Below are positions 19,924 to 35,929 of a stretch of DNA of 35,929 nt, piece by piece. The notes beneath the pieces are model-generated. The model saw nothing but the letters and a program-made list of their open reading frames with translations. It did no database searches and had not been told where the DNA came from. The stretch is from a virus. Both the position numbers and the translations under genes were made by a program. Where the stretch lies: the IMG/VR virus record IMGVR_UViG_3300030098_001019, positions 1-35,929 of that record. One strand, 5' to 3'. Numbering within the stretch: the stretch's first letter is position 1; every line of letters starts with the position of its first letter.

Positions 19924-19989
19924 GCGGAGCATGCAGGGACCGCATACAGACTTTCTGAAGTGCTATGGGTTGGTACTTCTTCTTGTGCA

Positions 19990-20056
19990 AGAAGGACGGC
20001 GGTTGGCGGTACGTTTCAGGCGAACTTTCACGCTACACCGTCACCGCCGTCCTTCT
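19990..20056. repeat. 14-bp perfect inverted repeat with 39-nt loop in the leader of the nuclease gene
   Basis: AGAAGGACGGCGGT (19990-20003) is exactly complementary to ACCGCCGTCCTTCT (20043-20056). The repeat lies 26 bp before the preferred start of the nuclease gene, so it would form a strong hairpin in the mRNA leader or a cruciform in DNA. It could be a translation control element, an origin-associated structure or a regulator site. Confidence 0.65.
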
Positions 20057-20081
20057 CTCTGCATTGCTCAAGGACGAAGCA

Positions 20082-20510
20082 ATGCGATTCAAGCAACACG
20101 AAACTCAGCAAGACCTCAGTAACGAGTCAGGCGTAGCCGCAGTCATTGAACGTGCGTGGCAATGCGGCATGCGCAAACTCCCCAAGTCATATCGACTCGA
20201 CTTCATGGCAGTGCGCGGTGATGATGCCTGCGCCTTCGTCGAAGTCAAGTGCAGGCGACATCAATCAGACACCTACCCGACTGTGATGCTCAGTCTGTCG
20301 AAGGTGCTGCAATCCAACGCACTAACCAAAGCAACTGGCTGCCCGTGTTTCTTCGTGGCTCGATTCACTGATGGCGTGTACTACTACGACCTGAGTGGGA
20401 AAGACTACAAGACGCAGTGGGGCGGACGTACCAAGTCAACTCGTGATGCTCGAGACATCGAGCCTATTGTTCTAATCCCAATCGCTTCAATGCAAAGGAT
20501 CCCCGAATGA
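20082..20510 (+). CDS. PD-(D/E)XK-type nuclease (VRR-NUC/restriction-endonuclease-like)
   Basis: The 142-residue product shows the core of a PD-(D/E)XK nuclease: an N-terminal helix with a Glu (NESGVAAVIERAW), Asp in SYRLDFMAV, and VEVKCR supplying the E-x-K pair. Aromatic strands FFVARF and VYYYDLSG follow. The frame is open back to ATG 19965, but ATG 20082 is preferred because AAGGA lies at proper spacing and the upstream part would span the 14-bp inverted repeat and read as unstructured sequence. It precedes the RecE-like and Erf genes and overlaps the former (ATGA at 20507-20510), suggesting a role in processing recombination or replication intermediates. Confidence 0.65.
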   Translation: MRFKQHETQQDLSNESGVAAVIERAWQCGMRKLPKSYRLDFMAVRGDDACAFVEVKCRRHQSDTYPTVMLSLSKVLQSNALTKATGCPCFFVARFTDGVYYYDLSGKDYKTQWGGRTKSTRDARDIEPIVLIPIASMQRIPE

Positions 20511-21367
20511 ATGCGTGCTACCCCACCGGGTCATACGACTCGACTGAACTAAGTGACAGCGAATACCGGCAACTGCCGTACATCAATGCCTCGCTCATCA
20601 AGCAAGCAATTGCTAGTACCAAGTACCTAGAAGCCTACCTCAGCAAAGACAGCGACGAGTCGCCTGCGTTGGTGCTCGGCAGTGCCTTTCACATGACCAT
20701 GCTAGAACCGCACTTGTTCGACGAGACGTTCGTGCTTGGTCCCAAAGTTGATCGGCGCACCAAGGTCGGCAAGGCTGCTTGGGCGGAGTTCATTGAACAC
20801 CACGGCAACAAGAAAGTGTTGACCGGAGCAGACATGCTTCGCATTGAAGGCATGAAGCAAGCGATTGCCAGCCATGATGAAGCAACCGACTTGCTGTACC
20901 CGAAGCATCAAGCCGCCTACGAGAAAGTAATGATCTACAATCCTGACGAAGCATTGACTACAGATGGCCTCACCACCTCTGCAATGAAAGGCAAGTTGGA
21001 CGTTGTAGACTTTGGCCGAGGATTCGTGGTCGACATCAAGACGACTCAAGATGCTTCGCCTGATTCGGTCGGTCGCACCATCGAACGGTTCGGCTATGAC
21101 ATTCAAGCAGCGTTCTATTCGAACCTGTACCGTGAAGTGGTTGGTGAGAATCCAACCTTCTGGTTCGTCTTCGTTGAGAAAGAACCGCCTCATGGTGTCT
21201 TGGTATGTCGCCTCGACGATGACTGGCTTGAGTATGGTGCGGCTCGCATGAAGCGAGGCATCAACGCAGTCGATGACTACCGAATGTTCGGAACACGAGA
21301 CTACAACAACAGCAAGGGGCTAGTTCTTGAATGCCCCGCATACATCTCAGCACGAAAGAAAGGATGA
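20507..21367 (+). CDS. RecE-like PD-(D/E)XK exonuclease
   Basis: The 286-residue product resembles the catalytic domain of exodeoxyribonuclease VIII (RecE/DUF3799 type), which resects duplex ends to give 3' single strands. Visible motifs are LVLGSAFHMTMLEP (the G-x-x-x-H element) near residue 57, KGKLDVVD with the catalytic Asp, VVDIKTTQDASP with the D-x-K core, and FGYDIQAAFY, the Q-x-x-x-Y motif typical of RecE/RecB-family exonucleases. It is followed at once by an Erf annealing protein and an SSB-like protein, a complete recombination cassette. Confidence 0.88.
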   Translation: MNACYPTGSYDSTELSDSEYRQLPYINASLIKQAIASTKYLEAYLSKDSDESPALVLGSAFHMTMLEPHLFDETFVLGPKVDRRTKVGKAAWAEFIEHHGNKKVLTGADMLRIEGMKQAIASHDEATDLLYPKHQAAYEKVMIYNPDEALTTDGLTTSAMKGKLDVVDFGRGFVVDIKTTQDASPDSVGRTIERFGYDIQAAFYSNLYREVVGENPTFWFVFVEKEPPHGVLVCRLDDDWLEYGAARMKRGINAVDDYRMFGTRDYNNSKGLVLECPAYISARKKG

Positions 21368-21370
21368 CCC

Positions 21371-22009
21371 GTGCCTACTGAAACCGTTCCTTATATCGAA
21401 GACAGTGCAGCAACCATAGACGTGATTGGTACTCGCCTAATGAAAGCGCAAGAGGCGTTGCCGTTCATCATCAAAGATGCACAGAACAGCCATGCGGGTT
21501 ACAAGTACCCAAAGGCCGACTCGTACATTGCGTCCTGTCGTTCTGCATTGCTTGACTCAGGCTTGGTGATGCGTCGAACCTTTTGGTTCAATCGTGAAGA
21601 CATGACTGTCAACATTCACTTCGCAATCATCGCGCCCGACTGCGGCGTATCACAGGATGACGGGCCTATCGTGTGCCCTGTTGTTGCACGCAAAGGCATG
21701 CCCGAAGACAAGGCGATGTTCGCTGCGTTGACATCATCAACGAGTTACTACCTTCAAGGTCTGTTCATGTTGCCGCGACTTGACAGTGCCCCTGAGGTGG
21801 ATCAGATCAACGACACTGAGTTCGTGCCGACCGAAGAAGACGAGCGCGACCTATGGGTTGCCATCAAAGAACTCGCGGAACTCGTAGGGATGGACACCGA
21901 TAAGGTGACATCAATGGTAACCACTCGTGCGAACGAGACAGGTGAACGAATCACTGCCGCATTCGTGCGGTCACTTATTGACACTGCAAAAGCAAAGAAA
22001 GGTAACTGA
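21371..22009 (+). CDS. erf: Erf-family single-strand annealing protein
   Basis: The 212-residue product is predicted to coat and anneal the single strands made by the exonuclease upstream. The Erf pattern is visible at residues about 25-140: a helix ending in PFIIKDAQNS, YKYPKADSYIASCRSALLDSG, a beta region, then KAMFAALTSSTSYYLQGLFMLP, where P22-like Erf proteins carry a helix ending in a Leu/Phe-rich turn. The C-terminus is charged. It starts with GTG at 21371, three bases after the preceding stop. Annealing proteins of this type often also serve genome circularisation after infection. Confidence 0.85.
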   Translation: MPTETVPYIEDSAATIDVIGTRLMKAQEALPFIIKDAQNSHAGYKYPKADSYIASCRSALLDSGLVMRRTFWFNREDMTVNIHFAIIAPDCGVSQDDGPIVCPVVARKGMPEDKAMFAALTSSTSYYLQGLFMLPRLDSAPEVDQINDTEFVPTEEDERDLWVAIKELAELVGMDTDKVTSMVTTRANETGERITAAFVRSLIDTAKAKKGN

Positions 22010-25232: not shown

Positions 25233-26264
25233 TCAGACAAGTGCGAGTGCAGCCTTGGTGACTGCGCCCTTCAGGTTGTTGGATGTACCGAACAGGTTGG
25301 AGTGCCCGCGGGCTTCGTTTGCATTGCGATGGGACGAAGTGTTGCGAGCCGTTCGGGTGTGGTCAGACCACTCGGTGATTGCGTTGAGTGCCGCCCAAGC
25401 AGAACCTTCGCAGCCGTTGTTAGTGCAGGTGGGGCTTTCAAAGTTCTCAAGCCATGCGCCAACAGTTGTGAGTGCCTTGCGTCGTCGCTTGATAGCGGCT
25501 TTGCTTTCATCGTGGGCACTTGGGATGGGTTCAAACTCCGACTGGTAAACGTCAACGAAGAACTCTTGCAGTTCTGCAGTCGTCAACTTTTTCTTGTAGA
25601 GCGCGTCCGCAGCCTCGACGAACTTTTCACGTTGACCAGACACTGCCTTGAACAAGTCACGGATCTTGTCGATCTGTTCTTGAATGCTAGGCGTGTGCCG
25701 GAACCTGAACAAGCGACCGTTGCGGCTTGCTTGGAATTGAGCCATCCGCTGAGTGTTAGCACACTCAATGCGGTAGAGGTGTCCCAATGCTTCAAGGCTT
25801 TGGAAACCATCGTGACCGTTCACAAGCGAGAAGAACGTATCGACCGGGTCCTTGCCGCCGACCATCATGGTGTCTGTGCGGCAGCAAAGGAAAGTCGTAC
25901 GCCCATTGCGGAACGAACCTGCTGACTCAACTCGCGGCATTGCTCCATCGTCCGCAGCGGCGTAAGCAAGTTCTGCCAACTGCGAGTTCTGGACGATGCT
26001 ATAGGAGTCGCTCACAATCCCAAGGACTTCCTTGGTGTCACTGCGGACGTTCGCAATGTGACTCTCTGCAGGCACTCGCATCGGGGGCATGCCTTTCGGT
26101 TCGATCACCGCATACAGGGGAGCGGGAATGACTTCCCAGTCGAGTCCTGCAATCTGCATTGCACCTTCGATGGTCGGTGCTTGCTCAACTACTGTCCCAA
26201 GGCTATGCCAAGCCTTGCGACCTGTGACCATGAGGTTGTCGTGTTCGTGAATCTCGTGTGCCAT
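25233..26264 (-). CDS. DUF932 / phage-plasmid-like protein
   Basis: The 343-residue product resembles the DUF932 (TIGR03299) family found on phages and plasmids. Diagnostic parts are the N-terminal AWHSLGTVVEQAPT, EVLGIVSDSYSIVQNSQL, and NGHDGFQSLEA with IECANTQRMA. The family function is not established; members are often early-expressed and abundant. ATG 26264 has AAAGGAAT upstream. Length matches the family. A perfect 10-bp hairpin lies in the spacer before it. Confidence 0.85.
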   Translation of the reverse strand: MAHEIHEHDNLMVTGRKAWHSLGTVVEQAPTIEGAMQIAGLDWEVIPAPLYAVIEPKGMPPMRVPAESHIANVRSDTKEVLGIVSDSYSIVQNSQLAELAYAAADDGAMPRVESAGSFRNGRTTFLCCRTDTMMVGGKDPVDTFFSLVNGHDGFQSLEALGHLYRIECANTQRMAQFQASRNGRLFRFRHTPSIQEQIDKIRDLFKAVSGQREKFVEAADALYKKKLTTAELQEFFVDVYQSEFEPIPSAHDESKAAIKRRRKALTTVGAWLENFESPTCTNNGCEGSAWAALNAITEWSDHTRTARNTSSHRNANEARGHSNLFGTSNNLKGAVTKAALALV

Positions 26265-26299
26265 TGGTGTTGATTCCTTTTGGGCACTGCGCAAAGACA

Positions 26300-26324
26300 C
26301 GGCTCGGCGAACACCGCCGAGCCG
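26300..26324 (-). other. Perfect 10-bp hairpin in the leftward operon
   Basis: CGGCTCGGCG (26300-26309), loop AACAC, CGCCGAGCCG (26315-26324). It lies in the 84-bp spacer between the nonapeptide-repeat gene and the DUF932 gene, 35 bp upstream of the latter's start. No U-tract on the minus strand, so processing or attenuation is likelier than strict termination. Confidence 0.7.
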
Positions 26325-26348
26325 CATCCTTGCTGGGTTGTATTGGTA

Positions 26349-29904: not shown

Positions 29905-30017
29905 TGGTTGCAAGCATTGCTTCAGTGTTGGGTTCGGTTTGGTTTGGTGTTGCGATGGGCCTTGCTGGTCTCATTGCTGGTTACATGTTCTGCTGCAAGA
30001 AGAAGTGCGGTAAATGA
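29901..30017 (+). CDS. 38-residue membrane peptide
   Basis: The peptide has one long hydrophobic helix (residues 2-30: VASIASVLGSVW, then VAMGLAGLIAGYMF) followed by CCKKKCGK, a cysteine and lysine-rich end that could be acylated or bind metal. ATG overlaps the previous stop (ATGA at 29901-29904), and its stop overlaps the ParB-like start (ATGA at 30014-30017), so it is embedded in the operon and very probably translated. Possibly a pinholin or lysis regulator, by size and position. Confidence 0.6.
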   Translation: MMVASIASVLGSVWFGVAMGLAGLIAGYMFCCKKKCGK

Positions 30018-30598
30018 ACTCAGACGACTTTGAGGTAAGGCAACTCCCACTTGCTGACTTAGTCGATGACCCGAACAACGCTCGCACTCATTCGCAACAG
30101 AATGTCGATGCGGTTGCACGCTCGCTCAAGAAGTTTGGGCAGCAGAAAAACATTGTGGTCATAAAGGAAGGCGAGCAGTACCGCGTAGTTGCAGGCCATG
30201 CGACTACTGCGGCTGCTCGTCAACTTGGTTGGAAGTCGATCAGTTCTCACGTTACTGATCTCCCCGAAGCACAAGCCGCCGCCTATGGCATTGCAGACAA
30301 CAGAACTGCAGAGTTAGGGCAATGGGAAGTCGATGCACTGAAGAAGGTGGTCGATGAACTCGCAGACGACTTGACTATTGCAGACATTGGTTTCACTCAA
30401 GATCAGTTGGAAGCCGTGGTGCCATTGCCCGAGTTTGATCCGGTAATGCCCGACCCCGTGCTTGCAGATGATCGAGCGGAAACCATTGTGGTAGTCATTG
30501 CAGACGACCGACTCGTTGAAGATGTCCGCGAAGCAATCGAAGAAACGATTGAGTGCAGCACTTGGGGAGACAGCGTATTTCTTCGTAGTAAGAAGTAG
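30014..30598 (+). CDS. ParB-like nuclease-domain protein
   Basis: The 194-residue product has a ParB/Sulfiredoxin-type N-terminal domain at residues about 8-100: VRQLPLADLVDDPNNARTH, VARSLKKFGQQKNIVV, and VVAGHATTAAARQLGW, the phage-type variant of the ParB box. The C-terminal 90 residues are acidic and lack the HTH of chromosomal ParB. In phages such domains typically neighbour or fuse to DNA-modifying enzymes. Here it precedes the DpdA-like gene by two bases, so it may recognise or prepare DNA for base exchange, or couple modification to NTP binding. It is likely the first gene of the modification block. Confidence 0.8.
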   Translation: MNSDDFEVRQLPLADLVDDPNNARTHSQQNVDAVARSLKKFGQQKNIVVIKEGEQYRVVAGHATTAAARQLGWKSISSHVTDLPEAQAAAYGIADNRTAELGQWEVDALKKVVDELADDLTIADIGFTQDQLEAVVPLPEFDPVMPDPVLADDRAETIVVVIADDRLVEDVREAIEETIECSTWGDSVFLRSKK

Positions 30599-30600
30599 CC

Positions 30601-31713
30601 GTGCTCAACCCCGTACTGATCTCATACCACTACCTGCGCAAAAGCAAACCGCTCTGCTGCGTGTTCGATGAGATGCGCAAAAGGAACGTGACTGAACTCA
30701 TGGTTGATTCAGGTGCGTTCTCTGCAAAGCACATTGGAGCGGAGATAGATCTCAACACCTACAACGACTTTGCTCAAAGGTGTGAAGATACTGGGCCGGT
30801 GTGGAATTGGGTAATGCTCGATGTCATCGGAGACTCAGATCAGACACTCAAGAACTTAGACATCACAGTTAGCAGAGGCCTTCAACCAATGCCTGTGCTG
30901 ACTGCTGACATGAGTTTGGACAGAGCAAAGGACTTGTGCGACATCAATCGAAGCATGTGCGTTGCTGGAGGCACTGACAGGTATCCCGGTTGGAAGCCAA
31001 CGCTCATGCGAAGATACTGGGATGCTTACGAAGCAACCGATAGAAAAGGTCTGTTGCATGGCCTTGGGTTCGTCAACTACCCGGAGTCGTTTCAGTGCCC
31101 ATTGACATCGTGCGACTCGACTGCCTTCATCAACGGCCAGCGGTTTGGTTCGGTTCACACCTACAACGCTAGTCGTGGGTGGGGCAGCGCGTATCAGTGG
31201 TCCGAGGTTGTAAAGAAAGGCAGTGCCGGGTTGCCAATCGAACTTGCTGAGTTCGTCAAGCGATGCGGAGTTCGTGACTTCTCGGACAGGCAATACATCA
31301 TGGCTCCGGGCAAAGACAAGGGCGGGTCAGGTGGTGCGTTCAATACTCTGTCTTGCACTTGGGCGTACATGATGACTGCCCAAGCCGCTCGGCGGCACGG
31401 CTTGCTGATATTCTTGGCCGCTTCCAATGCGGTGCCTTTGGTGTCGATGGCTGTGCTGAGTAAGTTAGGTGCGACCGATGGTTCGTTCTTCCCGTATGAG
31501 GAATGCCAAAAGGAAGTCGCAAGGTTGAGTTCTGCTTTGAAGCGCGACGCAAAGTCGGGCGCGGTTGCACTCGTTGATTGTATGGAGGAAGGTTGTGCGC
31601 GCATTAGTAATCGTCACCTTGCAAGTAGAGGGGTTCCACCAGTGGCCACAAGCCTGCGACCCAGTCGAGTTCTTGGCTACCAACCACAGGCATCTGTTCC
31701 ACATTCGCGGTGA
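30601..31713 (+). CDS. dpdA: DpdA-like DNA deazaguanine transglycosylase (TGT superfamily)
   Basis: The 370-residue product belongs to the tRNA-guanine transglycosylase superfamily and resembles phage DpdA, which exchanges guanine in DNA for a 7-deazaguanine. Motifs are VDSGAF with Asp36 (equivalent to the substrate-binding Asp of Tgt), VMLDVIGD with Asp74, LHGLGF near 152-157 and SCDSTAF with Asp172, which aligns by position with the Tgt nucleophile. It lacks the tRNA-binding PUA domain. GTG start two bases after the ParB-like stop. Downstream queD, queE and folE supply the base, which distinguishes it from a tRNA enzyme. Its last 119 bp overlap the next gene. Confidence 0.85.
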   Translation: MLNPVLISYHYLRKSKPLCCVFDEMRKRNVTELMVDSGAFSAKHIGAEIDLNTYNDFAQRCEDTGPVWNWVMLDVIGDSDQTLKNLDITVSRGLQPMPVLTADMSLDRAKDLCDINRSMCVAGGTDRYPGWKPTLMRRYWDAYEATDRKGLLHGLGFVNYPESFQCPLTSCDSTAFINGQRFGSVHTYNASRGWGSAYQWSEVVKKGSAGLPIELAEFVKRCGVRDFSDRQYIMAPGKDKGGSGGAFNTLSCTWAYMMTAQAARRHGLLIFLAASNAVPLVSMAVLSKLGATDGSFFPYEECQKEVARLSSALKRDAKSGAVALVDCMEEGCARISNRHLASRGVPPVATSLRPSRVLGYQPQASVPHSR

Positions 31714-31924
31714 GTTTCCAGTCACGCATGGAGACAGAGAACTTGAGATCATTCAAGTGAAGCGTTGGGTAGTTGAAACCATATCGCACTACTTCGGAAC
31801 GCCTGCAAGGTTTGATTCGATGTCTTGCGAACATATCTGCGAGTGGCTACTGGAGAAGTTCCCGGCAGCGTCTGCATTCGAAGTATTAGAGGACGGGGAG
31901 AATGGTGGTCGAGTTGAGCGTTGA
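31595..31924 (+). CDS. Small conserved-looking protein of the deazaguanine operon
   Basis: The 109-residue product contains LQVEGFHQWPQA, HRHLFHIRGEFPVTHGDRELE and a closing EVLEDGENGG. His, Asp and Glu are concentrated in the central strand pair. It looks like a compact conserved family often annotated as hypothetical in phages; I believe similar proteins accompany queuosine-type genes in actinophages, but cannot confirm that here. GTG 31595 has AGGAAGG six bases upstream. It overlaps dpdA by 119 bp in a different frame, unusually long for this genome. Confidence 0.65.
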   Translation: MRALVIVTLQVEGFHQWPQACDPVEFLATNHRHLFHIRGEFPVTHGDRELEIIQVKRWVVETISHYFGTPARFDSMSCEHICEWLLEKFPAASAFEVLEDGENGGRVER

Positions 31925-32363
31925 ACATCCCGCAGGCCTAACTAGAGCCGTCGCCTTTACCGGAGTTGAGTGCGAAGGTGAAGTGATGTTCGGTAAGCAG
32001 ACGTTGTTTCTTCGTGGCGAACCCGACCTGTGCGACTTGGTACTCGACGGCATTGAGCAAGTGTTCTTGACTGAGGCATTCAACGATTGGGAGTGGTTCA
32101 GTCGAGTTCTTGTGAAGGAGTGTCGAGATCGGACCATCCCGATCACAGTGGGCAGGCATTCCGAAGACGCGGCAGAGTTCTTGAAGTCACCACATGCAGG
32201 CCATGCGAGGATGATCGTTCGGTTCTTTGATTGCGACTGGCATTCGTTGTTGCGACCAATGGATGAAGTAAGCGTGGGCGTTGTCTATGACATGCGAACA
32301 TGGAAGGTGGCTGATGGAGTGGTGACGTTGCCGGAACAGTATGTAGGAGATAGGCAGGCGTGA
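31902..32363 (+). CDS. Unknown protein of the deazaguanine operon
   Basis: The 153-residue alpha/beta product has no family I recognise: VVELSVEHPAGLTRAVAFTG, FGKQTLFLRGEPDLCDLVLDG, VGRHSEDAAEFLKSPHAGH, then FDCDWHSLLRPMDEV. Conserved-looking His and Asp residues in GRHSED and CDWHS might bind metal. It overlaps its upstream neighbour by 22 bp and the glycosyltransferase by GTGA, so it is part of the modification operon. It could be a further base-tailoring enzyme or an adaptor for DpdA; nothing in the sequence decides. Confidence 0.6.
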   Translation: MVVELSVEHPAGLTRAVAFTGVECEGEVMFGKQTLFLRGEPDLCDLVLDGIEQVFLTEAFNDWEWFSRVLVKECRDRTIPITVGRHSEDAAEFLKSPHAGHARMIVRFFDCDWHSLLRPMDEVSVGVVYDMRTWKVADGVVTLPEQYVGDRQA

Positions 32364-33436
32364 CCATTCACTACCTCCCGCTTGAGCCATTGGCTCAACG
32401 CTACACCGCTCAGATGTATGACCGAGTCGTGTACGCCTTGCAAGAAACAGGTCGCAACTACAGTGTGATCGAAGGCGGCAAGTCGTATGAGACGATCAGG
32501 CATGGCGAATGGCTTGATACTGTCGGCACTTGTCATTGGCGGCTTGCTCAACTGCAGGCCACCTTGTCTCAACTCGGCAGCACGATTCTCGAAGGCGACA
32601 CCTTGTTGCTTGGTGACGTATGGTTCCCCGGCATTGAAGCAATCAAGCAAGTTGCAGAGTTGCGAGGCATGACTCTCAACATTGCCGGTTGGCACTATGC
32701 GGGTTGCTTTGATACTCATGACTTGTTATCCAAGCGGCTGTCGTCTTGGGGGCCGAAGTGGGAACAGGCGTTAGTCGAAGGCATCCTTGACGGCATCGCC
32801 TTTGGTAGTTCGTACCACCAAGCGTTCGTGAACAGGCATTGCTGTCTGCCTTATGTCTCTGGGGCTTATGGCCTTGTCTGGTTCCACGATGCACTGACTC
32901 CTCATCGTACTAACGAGCGAGCAGACCGAACGTCTGTAGTGTTCAATCATCGGTGGGCATCTGAAAAGCGATGGCAAGAGTTCAGATACTTGTCTCTTGC
33001 TCATCAAGACAAGGCAGACTTCTACTACAGCACGAATGGGGAAGTGCCGAGGATGGTTGCAGAGCAATGCGTTACTGCAGGCATTCAGATCAAAAAGCAT
33101 ACGTCTAAGGAACGGTACTACGATTGGCTTGCTCGGCAACACGTTGTCTGGTCCGGTGCAGACCAAGAGACGTTCGGCTATGCGTTCATGGAAGCCATCG
33201 CTCTTGGGTTACAAGTCGTTGCTCCCAACCGTGTTGCCTACCCGTGCCACTTTGAAAGGCTCGACATTGATCCCGCAGCGTACCTGTACGGTGCAGACGA
33301 TCCTTGCGGTGAGCGTATGTTGGTGCAAGCAATTACTGATGGCATACCGATTATCCCTGAAGAAGTCGCATCGCAGTACCATGACTCGGTAGACCGTTTC
33401 TTGGATGACGTGCTGATGTGGGAGGACATAGGATGA
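32360..33436 (+). CDS. GT-B-fold glycosyltransferase (retaining, GT4-like) in the deazaguanine operon
   Basis: The 358-residue product has two Rossmann-like halves. The first (residues about 1-180) contains LEGDTLLLGDVWFPG and MTLNIAGWHYAG. The second has SVVFNHRWASEKRW near 192-205, a strand ADFYYSTNG and, near 265-282, SGADQETFGYAFMEAIALG with Glu270 and Glu278, the E-x7-E signature that binds the sugar nucleotide in GT4-like enzymes. It starts with GTG overlapping the previous stop, has AGGAGA upstream, and ends in an ATGA overlap with queD. Embedded between dpdA and the biosynthesis genes, it probably adds a sugar to the modified base or its precursor. Some other phage or host glycan target cannot be excluded. 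Confidence 0.75.
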   Translation: MTIHYLPLEPLAQRYTAQMYDRVVYALQETGRNYSVIEGGKSYETIRHGEWLDTVGTCHWRLAQLQATLSQLGSTILEGDTLLLGDVWFPGIEAIKQVAELRGMTLNIAGWHYAGCFDTHDLLSKRLSSWGPKWEQALVEGILDGIAFGSSYHQAFVNRHCCLPYVSGAYGLVWFHDALTPHRTNERADRTSVVFNHRWASEKRWQEFRYLSLAHQDKADFYYSTNGEVPRMVAEQCVTAGIQIKKHTSKERYYDWLARQHVVWSGADQETFGYAFMEAIALGLQVVAPNRVAYPCHFERLDIDPAAYLYGADDPCGERMLVQAITDGIPIIPEEVASQYHDSVDRFLDDVLMWEDIG

Positions 33437-33864
33437 AGATCGAAAAGAAGTACCACTTCTACGCTGCTCACAGAAATCAGAACTTGACTGGTAAGTGCAG
33501 CAGCCTGCACGGGCACCGATACGGAGTTACCGTAGTCATCGAGGCTCCAAGGACTCGTGCGGGTGTCACCATGTTGTTCGCAGACATCGACATCAAGGCA
33601 GGTTCAGTGTTGCAGGCGTATGACCACGCGGCGATCATCGACAGAAGGGACGAGGTGTGGTCAGTGATAATGAAGCAGACTGACCATGAAGGCATGCCAA
33701 TGCGATGCGTGGTACTCGATTGTGAGTCATCGGCGGAGAACTTGGCAGGCGTGTTGTTCGATGAGATGCTGGAGGCGGGCTTGCCAATAGTGGAGTTGCG
33801 ATTGCAAGAAACCGACTCTGCAACAGTGATCTACACCTTGGAGGATCGCAATGAGCAAGAGTGA
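33433..33864 (+). CDS. queD: 6-carboxy-5,6,7,8-tetrahydropterin synthase QueD
   Basis: The 143-residue product converts 7,8-dihydroneopterin triphosphate (made by FolE) to 6-carboxytetrahydropterin. The zinc ligands are His13, His26 and His28 (AAHRN and CSSLHGH), the catalytic Cys is Cys22, and the Asp-His pair is Asp64-His65 in AYDHAAII. Glu126 in LQETDSA fits the substrate-anchoring Glu. All key residues of the T-fold enzyme are present. ATG 33433 overlaps the glycosyltransferase stop (ATGA); an ATG 15 bases earlier is in frame but less likely. It overlaps queE by 14 bp. Confidence 0.92.
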   Translation: MKIEKKYHFYAAHRNQNLTGKCSSLHGHRYGVTVVIEAPRTRAGVTMLFADIDIKAGSVLQAYDHAAIIDRRDEVWSVIMKQTDHEGMPMRCVVLDCESSAENLAGVLFDEMLEAGLPIVELRLQETDSATVIYTLEDRNEQE

Positions 33865-34528
33865 TAAGAACTACACCGTGAATGAAGTGTTCTACTCGAT
33901 GCAAGGTGAAGGCGTTCGTGCAGGAACGATGAACGTCTTTCTCCGATTCACTGGTTGCAACTTGCAGTGTTCTGAAGAAGCAGGCCCCAAGAGCCCCGGC
34001 GGGTTTGATTGCGACACCGAGTTCACTTCGGGTAGACGCATGAGTGCGGCACAGGTGATTGACTTCTGCGACGAGACAATGGTTGCAGGTGGGTTCAAAG
34101 AATCGAAGCACGGCAACCAAAAGTCAGTGATCTTCACCGGAGGCGAGCCGGCACTGCAACTTGACCCATCGTTAGTGCAGGCGTTCAAGGATCGTGGTTA
34201 CTACACCTGCATTGAAACGAATGGCAGTAAGGACGTATCGGGGTTGGGGCTTGATTGGATTACCGTCTCGCCCAAAGTGGCAGAACATGCAGTGAGGCAG
34301 ATGGAAGCCGATGAAGTCAAGTACGTTCGCGGGTATGGGCAAGCGTTGCCTAAACCAACATGCAAGGCAGACCATCAACTGATCTCGCCTGCATTCGATG
34401 GGGTGACATTGCGAGTCGATGGAGTAGACCAAGATCAGAGGTCGCTTGAATGGTGCGTGGGCCTCATTCGTGAAGATCCTCGGTGGAGGTTGTCAGTGCA
34501 GTTGCACAAGGTGTGGAAAGTAAGATGA
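33851..34528 (+). CDS. queE: 7-carboxy-7-deazaguanine synthase QueE (radical SAM)
   Basis: The 225-residue product rearranges 6-carboxytetrahydropterin to 7-carboxy-7-deazaguanine. The N-terminal VNEVFYSMQGEGVRAGT is the QueE substrate-binding start. The cluster ligands are Cys36, Cys40 and Cys54, a CX3CX13C spacing instead of the radical-SAM CX3CX2C; insertions there are known among QueE enzymes. FTGGEPAL at 95-102 is the SAM-binding GGE motif, and ETNG and SPK follow as in QueE. It ends in an ATGA overlap with folE. No queC follows, so CDG may be the pathway end product in this phage. Confidence 0.92.
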   Translation: MSKSDKNYTVNEVFYSMQGEGVRAGTMNVFLRFTGCNLQCSEEAGPKSPGGFDCDTEFTSGRRMSAAQVIDFCDETMVAGGFKESKHGNQKSVIFTGGEPALQLDPSLVQAFKDRGYYTCIETNGSKDVSGLGLDWITVSPKVAEHAVRQMEADEVKYVRGYGQALPKPTCKADHQLISPAFDGVTLRVDGVDQDQRSLEWCVGLIREDPRWRLSVQLHKVWKVR

Positions 34529-35076
34529 GTGGCGAAGCAGGCATTCGTGAGTTGTTGATCGAGTTGGGGCAAGACCCCGACCGTGAAGGATTGATTGATA
34601 CGCCCAAGCGTGTAGTCAAAGCCATGAAGGAGATGACCTCTGGCTATGACATGGACCCGGCAGAGATACTGTGCAGGCAGTTCGAAGGCGATGGGTACGA
34701 GGACTTGGTCATTGTTCGTGGCATTCGGTTTTCTTCAATGTGCGAGCATCACCTGCTTCCGTTCATTGGAACTGCATCGGTTGCCTATCTCCCCAAGAAA
34801 CGTGTAGTAGGGTTGTCTAAACTCCCGCGACTCGTAGAATGCTATGCGAGGCGATTGCAACTCCAAGAACGCATGACCAATCAGATTGGCATGGCAGTGT
34901 GGAACCACCTAGACCCTCAAGGTGCTGGTGTTCATGTTCAAGCAACTCATCAGTGCATGGCTTGTCGAGGCGTTCGACAGCCCGATGCCGACATGGTGAC
35001 GACTATGGTTATTGGGGCAATGAAGGATGACCCCAGCCTCAAGTCGGAGTTCATCTCTGCGGTGCAGAACTATTGA
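34525..35076 (+). CDS. folE: GTP cyclohydrolase I FolE
   Basis: The 183-residue product converts GTP to 7,8-dihydroneopterin triphosphate, the first step to 7-deazaguanine. Family landmarks are IDTPKRVVKAMKEMTSGY, then RGIRFSSMCEHHLLPF with zinc ligands Cys73 and His76, VVGLSKLPRLVE, and THQCMACRGVRQPDADMVT carrying the third zinc Cys. Length is typical of the catalytic core. ATG 34525 overlaps the queE stop and is preferred over an in-frame ATG at 34483 that lies inside queE. Having its own FolE would push GTP into the pathway during infection. Confidence 0.94.
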   Translation: MSGEAGIRELLIELGQDPDREGLIDTPKRVVKAMKEMTSGYDMDPAEILCRQFEGDGYEDLVIVRGIRFSSMCEHHLLPFIGTASVAYLPKKRVVGLSKLPRLVECYARRLQLQERMTNQIGMAVWNHLDPQGAGVHVQATHQCMACRGVRQPDADMVTTMVIGAMKDDPSLKSEFISAVQNY

Positions 35077-35111: not shown

Positions 35112-35457
35112 GACTGACGATGGCAAAGACAAGGCACCTTGGCTGGAGCAATACCGGTTCAAGAAAGGGCAGTCGGGCAATCCCGGCGGTCGCCCAAAGG
35201 GCATGTCCATCGAAGCAGAAATGAGAAAGCGATTGTCCGATGGCGAGTCGGGCGAACGCATCGTGGAATCACTCATCAATGTCGCATTGACTCAAGCACT
35301 CAGTGGCGACTTCAGATTCTGGAACTCAATCATCGAGCGCATGGACGGCAAGGTTGCTGATCGCATCGCTGGGCCAGATGGTGGAGGTTTGACTGTCGTG
35401 CTTGAGAAGTTCGGGGCAAAGGATGACGACGACGGTAAAGCACCAACTGCTACCTAA
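35110..35457 (+). CDS. terS: Terminase small subunit candidate (DUF5681-like)
   Basis: The 115-residue product has an N-terminal FKKGQSGNPGGRPKG motif, the signature of DUF5681, a basic DNA-binding-like patch often found in proteins encoded just upstream of terL. Helices follow (IEAEMRKRLSDGESGERIVE, LTQALSGDFRFWNSIIERM) and an acidic C-terminus. Role inferred: recognise the packaging site and load the large subunit. It overlaps terL by 35 bp. Confidence 0.75.
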   Translation: MTDDGKDKAPWLEQYRFKKGQSGNPGGRPKGMSIEAEMRKRLSDGESGERIVESLINVALTQALSGDFRFWNSIIERMDGKVADRIAGPDGGGLTVVLEKFGAKDDDDGKAPTAT

Positions 35458-35929
35458 GCAGTACGACTTCGTGTGCTCGTCAGCACGCGAGGTACTCTAC
35501 TCTGGAGCATACGCTGCGGGCAAGACGAGAGCATTGTGCTATCGACTGGTCGCCCGCGCTCAAGTCCCCGGCTCTCGTGAAGGCCTTTGCCGTAAGCATC
35601 TGGTGACGTTGAAGGCATCAACACTTCGCAGTCTGCTCGAGCCAGACGGCAACGCACCGCCCGTGCTGCCTCCGGGTACTTACGATCACAACAAGTCAGA
35701 GAAGTGCATTCGCATCAAAGGCGGTGGCGAGATCGTTTACTTCGGCTTGGACGATCCGCAGAAGATCGGTTCCTACAACCTCACAGGATGCGCAATAGAC
35801 GAGGCAGTCGAACTGACGCTCGACGACTGGCAGATGCTCATGGGCCGCATTCGCTTGGACGTAGGCGTTCCCAACTCGCTGTACGGTGTCTGCAACCCCG
35901 GCCAGCCGTCGCATTGGCTTGCGGAACGG
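35423..35929 (+). CDS. terL: Terminase large subunit, N-terminal part (partial; 3' end beyond the window)
   Basis: The 169 codons seen encode the ATPase half of the packaging motor. LYSGAYAAGKTRAL near residues 25-38 is the Walker A, GEIVYFGLDDPQKIGSYN follows, CAIDEAVELT near 129-138 holds the Walker B Asp-Glu, and CNPGQPSHWLAER at the window edge is the coupling motif region before the nuclease domain. The rest of the gene is the C-terminal fragment at 2-778. ATG 35423 lies inside terS in another frame. Confidence 0.93.
   Translation, partial: MTTTVKHQLLPKQYDFVCSSAREVLYSGAYAAGKTRALCYRLVARAQVPGSREGLCRKHLVTLKASTLRSLLEPDGNAPPVLPPGTYDHNKSEKCIRIKGGGEIVYFGLDDPQKIGSYNLTGCAIDEAVELTLDDWQMLMGRIRLDVGVPNSLYGVCNPGQPSHWLAER

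Follow-up and report, generated by a model that had tools for sequence, protein, structure and literature searches.

A glycosyltransferase-containing cassette in the place of QueC in putative 7-deazaguanine DNA-modification operons of phages

To our knowledge, the glycosylation of DNA is known only on hydroxymethylated pyrimidines (T4-type bases and base J). In T4-type systems a phage glycosyltransferase (GT) acts on DNA bases, as would be expected for the locus described here, but its acceptor is a hydroxymethylated pyrimidine made at the nucleotide level and not a deazaguanine inserted by a transglycosylase. A GT that acts on a 7-deazaguanine nucleoside does exist, namely QTMAN, which mannosylates queuosine in tRNA; it resembles the enzyme that we propose, but our proposal concerns DNA and has no cyclopentenediol to carry the sugar. 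Phages with dCDG or dDG in their DNA were reportedly described in 2023 by Cui et al., together with a predicted CDG decarboxylase, DpdL. These phages are said to have FolE, QueD and QueE without QueC, as does our window (the whole 35,929-base stretch of viral DNA that was analysed), to which a GT is added; the cassette described below often adds a further protein, X.

The modified bases dPreQ0, dPreQ1, dADG, dG+ and dCDG have already been described in the DNA literature. The FolE/QueD/QueE pathway leads to 7-carboxy-7-deazaguanine (CDG), which QueC converts to preQ0 (PMC13329287, PMC6884629). Phages of the preQ0 type (Mycobacterium phages Rosebush and CRB2; Escherichia coli phage CAjan) have FolE/QueD/QueE and insertion by DpdA in common with the window (PMC6884629); they encode QueC, whereas in the window QueC is absent and phrog_17812, X and a GT are found instead. 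The dG+ system of phage 9g, with Gat-QueC and DpdA, likewise depends on a 7-deazaguanine that FolE/QueD/QueE produce and that DpdA places in DNA (PMC6884629), but it adds an amidine, whereas the window has no PF06508 protein and the added group would be a sugar. A search of the open-licence literature turned up no description of glycosylated 7-deazaguanine as a DNA base; preprints and most subscription papers lay outside this search, and the novelty of such a base is probable, not certain.

The window is an entire virus record with genes of siphovirus type (portal, capsid, tape measure). Its eight-gene operon lies on the plus strand directly 5' of the terminase genes, at 30014-35076, in the order ParB, DpdA, phrog_17812, X, GT, QueD, QueE, FolE (Table 1). 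An initial annotation had placed eight genes here, and all eight are present at the stated coordinates. It had also described them as joined by overlaps or two-base gaps, which needs one correction. The ParB-like and DpdA genes are separated by 2 bp; GTGA or ATGA overlaps join X to GT, GT to QueD (ATG at 33433) and QueE to FolE (ATG at 34525); and short overlaps are present between QueD and QueE (14 bp) and between phrog_17812 and X (23 bp). The exception is DpdA and phrog_17812, whose frames share 119 bp (31595-31713) because that of DpdA extends about 40 residues past its relatives. These last residues have no counterpart there, as if a stop codon had been lost.

Table 1. Genes of the operon, with the matches on which each assignment rests
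Feature	Position	Strand	Evidence
ParB-like protein, operon gene 1	30014..30598	+	ParB_N (Pfam) 1.4e-7; phrog_620 3.9e-37
DpdA-like DNA-guanine transglycosylase	30601..31713	+	phrog_887 ('queuine tRNA-ribosyltransferase') 4.3e-22; tblastn; invariant motifs
phrog_17812, QueD-fold protein	31595..31924	+	phrog_17812 8.7e-28; AlphaFold; hhalign
X, 153 aa, uncharacterised family	31902..32363	+	alignment A7; L102 profile match
GT-B/GT4-type glycosyltransferase, EX7E	32360..33436	+	AlphaFold; family profile
QueD (6-carboxytetrahydropterin synthase)	33433..33864	+	PTPS 2.6e-19; alignment A10
QueE (7-carboxy-7-deazaguanine synthase, Cx14CxxC type)	33851..34528	+	TIGR04508 5.6e-42; phrog_2076 1.2e-32
FolE (GTP cyclohydrolase I)	34525..35076	+	GTP_cyclohydroI 1.8e-69; NF006825 over cutoff

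No match to the QueC or Gat-QueC family (PF06508) was found across the whole record, which may be a fragment because its ends split TerL. The C-terminal part of TerL lies at 2-778 and the N-terminal part within 35402-35929, and this layout probably reflects a near-complete genome, circular or permuted, that was opened within this gene; a direct join of the two parts is one base out of frame. The record also carries a recombination set, consisting of a DUF932 protein (25233-26327, minus strand) and a PDDEXK nuclease, an exonuclease VIII-like protein and an ERF recombinase (19965-20510, 20507-21367 and 21371-22009).

FolE, QueD and QueE are clear from family profiles. Residues were checked singly for QueD only, which retains the catalytic Cys22, Asp64-His65 and Glu126, and the TIGR04508 match of QueE falls under the curated cutoff of that model (143.9 of 240 bits). 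The DpdA of the window found no relatives as a single-sequence query, and alignments served as queries instead. Its tblastn matches to phage DpdAs cover residues 2-187, and the Asp motifs DSGAF (D36) and CDS (D172) show no variation across 11 relatives. Against solved transglycosylases, the DpdA profile gives only a weak match (7ui4, a DNA-guanine transglycosylase, E of 0.097); it matches the long DpdA group at 4e-5 by hhalign. Judged by the DpdA motifs and by FolE/QueD/QueE, the window would qualify as a DpdA-type 7-deazaguanine system; that the base is present in virion DNA is an inference. The ParB-like gene holds the same position in many relatives (gene order of L001, L008 and L102) and in mycobacteriophage CRB2.

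Between DpdA and the GT, the initial annotation had left two unknown proteins, of which one proves to be a QueD-fold protein and the other a member of an undescribed family that recurs with the GT. The AlphaFold model of the first, phrog_17812 (pLDDT 93), has E. coli QueD as its best PDB match (4ntk; Foldseek 9.1e-7; VIA Z 13.0, rmsd 2.2 over 106 residues), and its family profile matches QueD at 5.3e-10 by hhalign. Residues H15, H31 and H33, the expected zinc ligands, are invariant, as are E99, H45, R48, E51 and a Ser-Cys-Glu triplet, but the catalytic Cys and Asp-His of QueD (C22 and D64-H65) are missing from the family, as judged on 49 aligned sequences. Because the histidines are kept and the catalytic residues are missing, we infer that the ligand of phrog_17812 should resemble a pterin or a deazaguanine and that the protein should catalyse a reaction other than that of QueD. 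Possibly phrog_17812 and DpdL are one and the same protein. If so, we infer that the sugar would be accepted by 7-deazaguanine, perhaps on a carbon; if not, the 7-carboxylate would be the likely handle.

For the family of the second protein, X, neither PHROG nor the PDB gave a noteworthy match, and the window protein has no Pfam match above cutoff. Alignment A7 (22 sequences) has G21, E23, E25, T34, F36 and D150 invariant, and the resulting motifs (G-x-E-x-E, T-x-F and a terminal Y..D) are common to two sets of proteins that adjoin phrog_17812 and the GT in dozens of loci. The identity of the window X to these sets is just 15-22%, and its putative membership of the family rests on the shared motifs, on the slot and on a profile match (6e-12) to the protein in the same slot of L102, a locus with the same gene order as the window. 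In two other loci, the slot holds a radical SAM protein (L001, 4855-5889; L103, 8336-9283), that of L103 with a SPASM domain. In 20 loci (cluster c8; e.g., L076, L046 and L059), a further conserved protein, about 78 aa long and without a PHROG match, lies between phrog_17812 and the GT.

The GT of the window matches known families weakly as a single sequence (Glycos_transf_1, 0.02), and Glycos_transf_1 is matched in 29 of the 57 members of its family, at best with 7.6e-12. Its AlphaFold model (pLDDT 92) has a GT-B fold in which the EX7E motif (E270-x7-E278) and R198/K203 are kept; the closest structures are retaining enzymes of GT4 (sucrose-phosphate synthase, BshA and MshA; Z 24-27). Rows from annotated records were left out of the predicted-structure alignments. 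Neither the donor nor the acceptor is readable from the modelled fold. A profile match to a lipopolysaccharide or teichoic acid enzyme, which the initial annotation would have taken as a refutation, did not appear, as no specific assignment reaches the cutoff. The Pfam QTMAN domain was not among the families matched by the 57 members at E <= 0.01, and hence no link of the GT to QTMAN was found. A seven-sequence GT alignment (A1) was too diverse to serve as a query for the collection scan and other alignments were used; in the GT tree, three QueC-associated transferases lay on long branches, so their position was not used.

Viral contigs were scanned from three starting points, phrog_17812, DpdA and the GT, and phrog_17812 and the GT each matched at least hundreds of contigs among the matches listed. 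Among GT-selected loci flanked by 4 kb or more at either side, DpdA was present in 79/79; phrog_17812 was found in 77 of these 79 loci, FolE/QueD/QueE in 76 and QueC in none. Loci of the large-phage type all carried DpdA, phrog_17812 and FolE/QueD/QueE (39/39), and those of the window type, a set reaching down to 28% identity, did so in 40/40, 38/40 and 37/40 cases, respectively. Since the GT queries derive from loci that were already identified, the GT-selected sets are not wholly independent. When GTs were placed in groups sharing <50% identity, phrog_17812 was found in 9 of the 10 window-type groups. These counts support the proposed link: this GT subfamily occurs almost only with DpdA, phrog_17812 and FolE/QueD/QueE. 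In relatives, the GT is often joined to phrog_17812 by 4-bp overlaps.

Selection by DpdA (n=78) revealed phrog_17812 in 0/28 loci with QueC versus 42/50 loci without it (p = 2e-14). Because many contigs are close copies, the counts were redone with near-identical loci collapsed, and both linkage and exclusion held; when each DpdA group at 60% identity was represented by a single locus, phrog_17812 was present in 0/21 versus 11/12 (p = 6e-8). The GT was found in 32 of the 42 DpdA-selected loci with phrog_17812 versus 2 of the 36 others, and in 64/80 viral loci selected by phrog_17812.

A tblastn search of phage isolates with the window GT, which is free of this query bias, detected relatives in Acidovorax phage ACP17, Sinorhizobium phage Phosso, the PA5oct group and Xanthomonas phage X1, and the Phosso protein as query found another in Synechococcus phage BUCT-ZZ01. 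All of these relatives adjoin FolE or QueE, while those of the PhiXhv group adjoin Gat-QueC. The four phages ACP17, Phosso, PAC2 and X1 all carry DpdA and the GT; no QueC was found in the whole records of the first three, and X1 has a sub-cutoff match only. PA5oct had been noted as carrying a deazaguanine system, with no GT linked to it (PMC7824862). Culturable phages are thus among the carriers of the cassette (ACP17, PA5oct/PAC2, Phosso, X1 and BUCT-ZZ01).

The arrangement of the window is that of CRB2 (ParB-DpdA-QueC-QueD-QueE-FolE-TerS-TerL), with phrog_17812-X-GT in the slot of QueC. Three states can be distinguished: QueC (preQ0 type), phrog_17812 without the GT, and phrog_17812 with the GT. 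The second state is found in phiST (L182), RHph_I1_18 and Ahp1, often with another DpdA-like gene. Loci with phrog_17812 and no GT include L043, L047, L055, L074, L085, L091, L181, L182 and L183, most of which have a different downstream gene with an 'NSAFE' motif, which may be another type of DpdA. By these counts and gene orders, a cassette of phrog_17812 and the GT, often with X, replaces QueC in many unrelated phages.

We consider it probable that the product of the operon is a glycosylated 7-deazaguanine within the DNA of the phage itself, a chemistry that we infer from gene content, folds and linkage. The gene content and order, the folds, the linkage and the exclusion of QueC are direct observations. 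FolE, QueD and QueE would convert GTP to CDG by the known pathway, and CDG would not be converted to preQ0 because QueC is absent. In place of QueC, phrog_17812 is inferred to process CDG, possibly by decarboxylation to 7-deazaguanine, and DpdA, by homology, would exchange guanine in DNA for the processed base, possibly assisted by the ParB-like protein as a binder of DNA. The GT would then transfer a sugar from a host NDP-sugar to the base, most likely in DNA, and the resulting bulk in the major groove would block restriction enzymes. X, or the radical SAM/SPASM protein that takes its slot in some relatives, may add a step, which would be optional because many loci carry neither. The substrate, the order of the steps, the sugar and the linkage atom are all inferred. 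Since CDG has no hydroxyl, the sugar would have to be esterified to the carboxylate, be joined as a C-glycoside once CDG has been decarboxylated, or be attached through a linker that we do not see. The sugar is not required for the remaining pathway, as phrog_17812 occurs without the GT. No sugar-nucleotide genes were recognised among the window proteins scanned, and a host NDP-sugar is therefore expected. Large relatives often have such genes near the GT (DegT aminotransferase, epimerase, UDP-sugar dehydrogenase, cytidylyltransferase and a sulfotransferase-like gene); this variety indicates that sugar donors may differ among relatives. The proposal of the initial annotation, a sugar on a 7-deazaguanine, hence has strong comparative support in the GT linkage and in the replacement of QueC by phrog_17812, with the product unproven.

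It is also possible, if rather unlikely, that the GT acts on a small molecule. In that case CDG, the free 7-deazaguanine or a pterin intermediate would receive its sugar in solution, and DpdA would then insert the sugar-bearing base or the product would serve as a signal or pigment. The GT model is structurally close to, among others, the tetrahydrobiopterin glucosyltransferases BGluT (9v0l, 5zes; Z 22-23, identity 13-14%) and GT4 folds serve many acceptors, so a soluble acceptor cannot be dismissed, and phrog_17812 itself has the PTPS/QueD fold. However, BGluT is equalled in score by many GT4 enzymes that use other acceptors, and the presence of DpdA in every GT locus with room for it indicates a pathway that ends at DNA. 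Indeed, a sugar added before insertion would still yield a glycosylated base in DNA. Less likely again is a sugar-free base in DNA (dCDG, or 7-deazaguanine if phrog_17812 is DpdL) alongside a GT that modifies a protein or the host surface: phrog_17812 and FolE/QueD/QueE do exist without the GT (e.g., in L043 and phiST), and GT genes of jumbo cyanophages are thought to target surface polysaccharide (PMC7824862), but the GT subfamily hardly ever occurs outside DpdA loci and often overlaps phrog_17812 by 4 bp, and surface enzymes would not track the absence of QueC. That the GT is a chance neighbour without functional link, for which only its weak single-sequence matches speak, is scarcely credible and in practice excluded by the GT-first counts (DpdA in 79/79), by linkage across GT groups less than 50% identical and by the conserved catalytic residues.

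Returning to a glycosylated base in phage DNA, a GT and a remodelled QueD in the place of QueC across unrelated phages point to a widespread DNA decoration. A bolder version, to which we give somewhat less than even credence, is that a large unrecognised class of phages has glycosylated 7-deazaguanine DNA through a QueC-free branch. There, CDG would be the substrate of an enzyme derived from QueD, and a GT4 enzyme devoted to this step would attach the sugar to the base without a linker. The bond might be C-glycosidic, at C7, or a glycosyl ester with the 7-carboxylate. We know of no other DNA base with either linkage. A sugar on a transglycosylase-inserted purine would unite the two large strategies of phage DNA disguise, would explain widespread 'hypothetical' genes, would give phrog_17812 and X a function, and would predict type IV restriction systems that target such bases.

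Sugars may also occur beside QueC-type enzymes. Xanthomonas phage PhiXhv-15 (L007, 6813-10047) encodes, in order, a Gat-QueC annotated as glucosamine-fructose-6-phosphate aminotransferase, a PIG-L type deacetylase and a relative of the GT, which suggests that GlcNAc is added and then deacetylated; a glucosamine-bearing deazaguanine is possible. Two rare loci (L135, 2460-7193; L158, 2123-8549) combine QueC with a distant relative of the GT, without phrog_17812, and perhaps make glycosylated bases of the preQ0 type.
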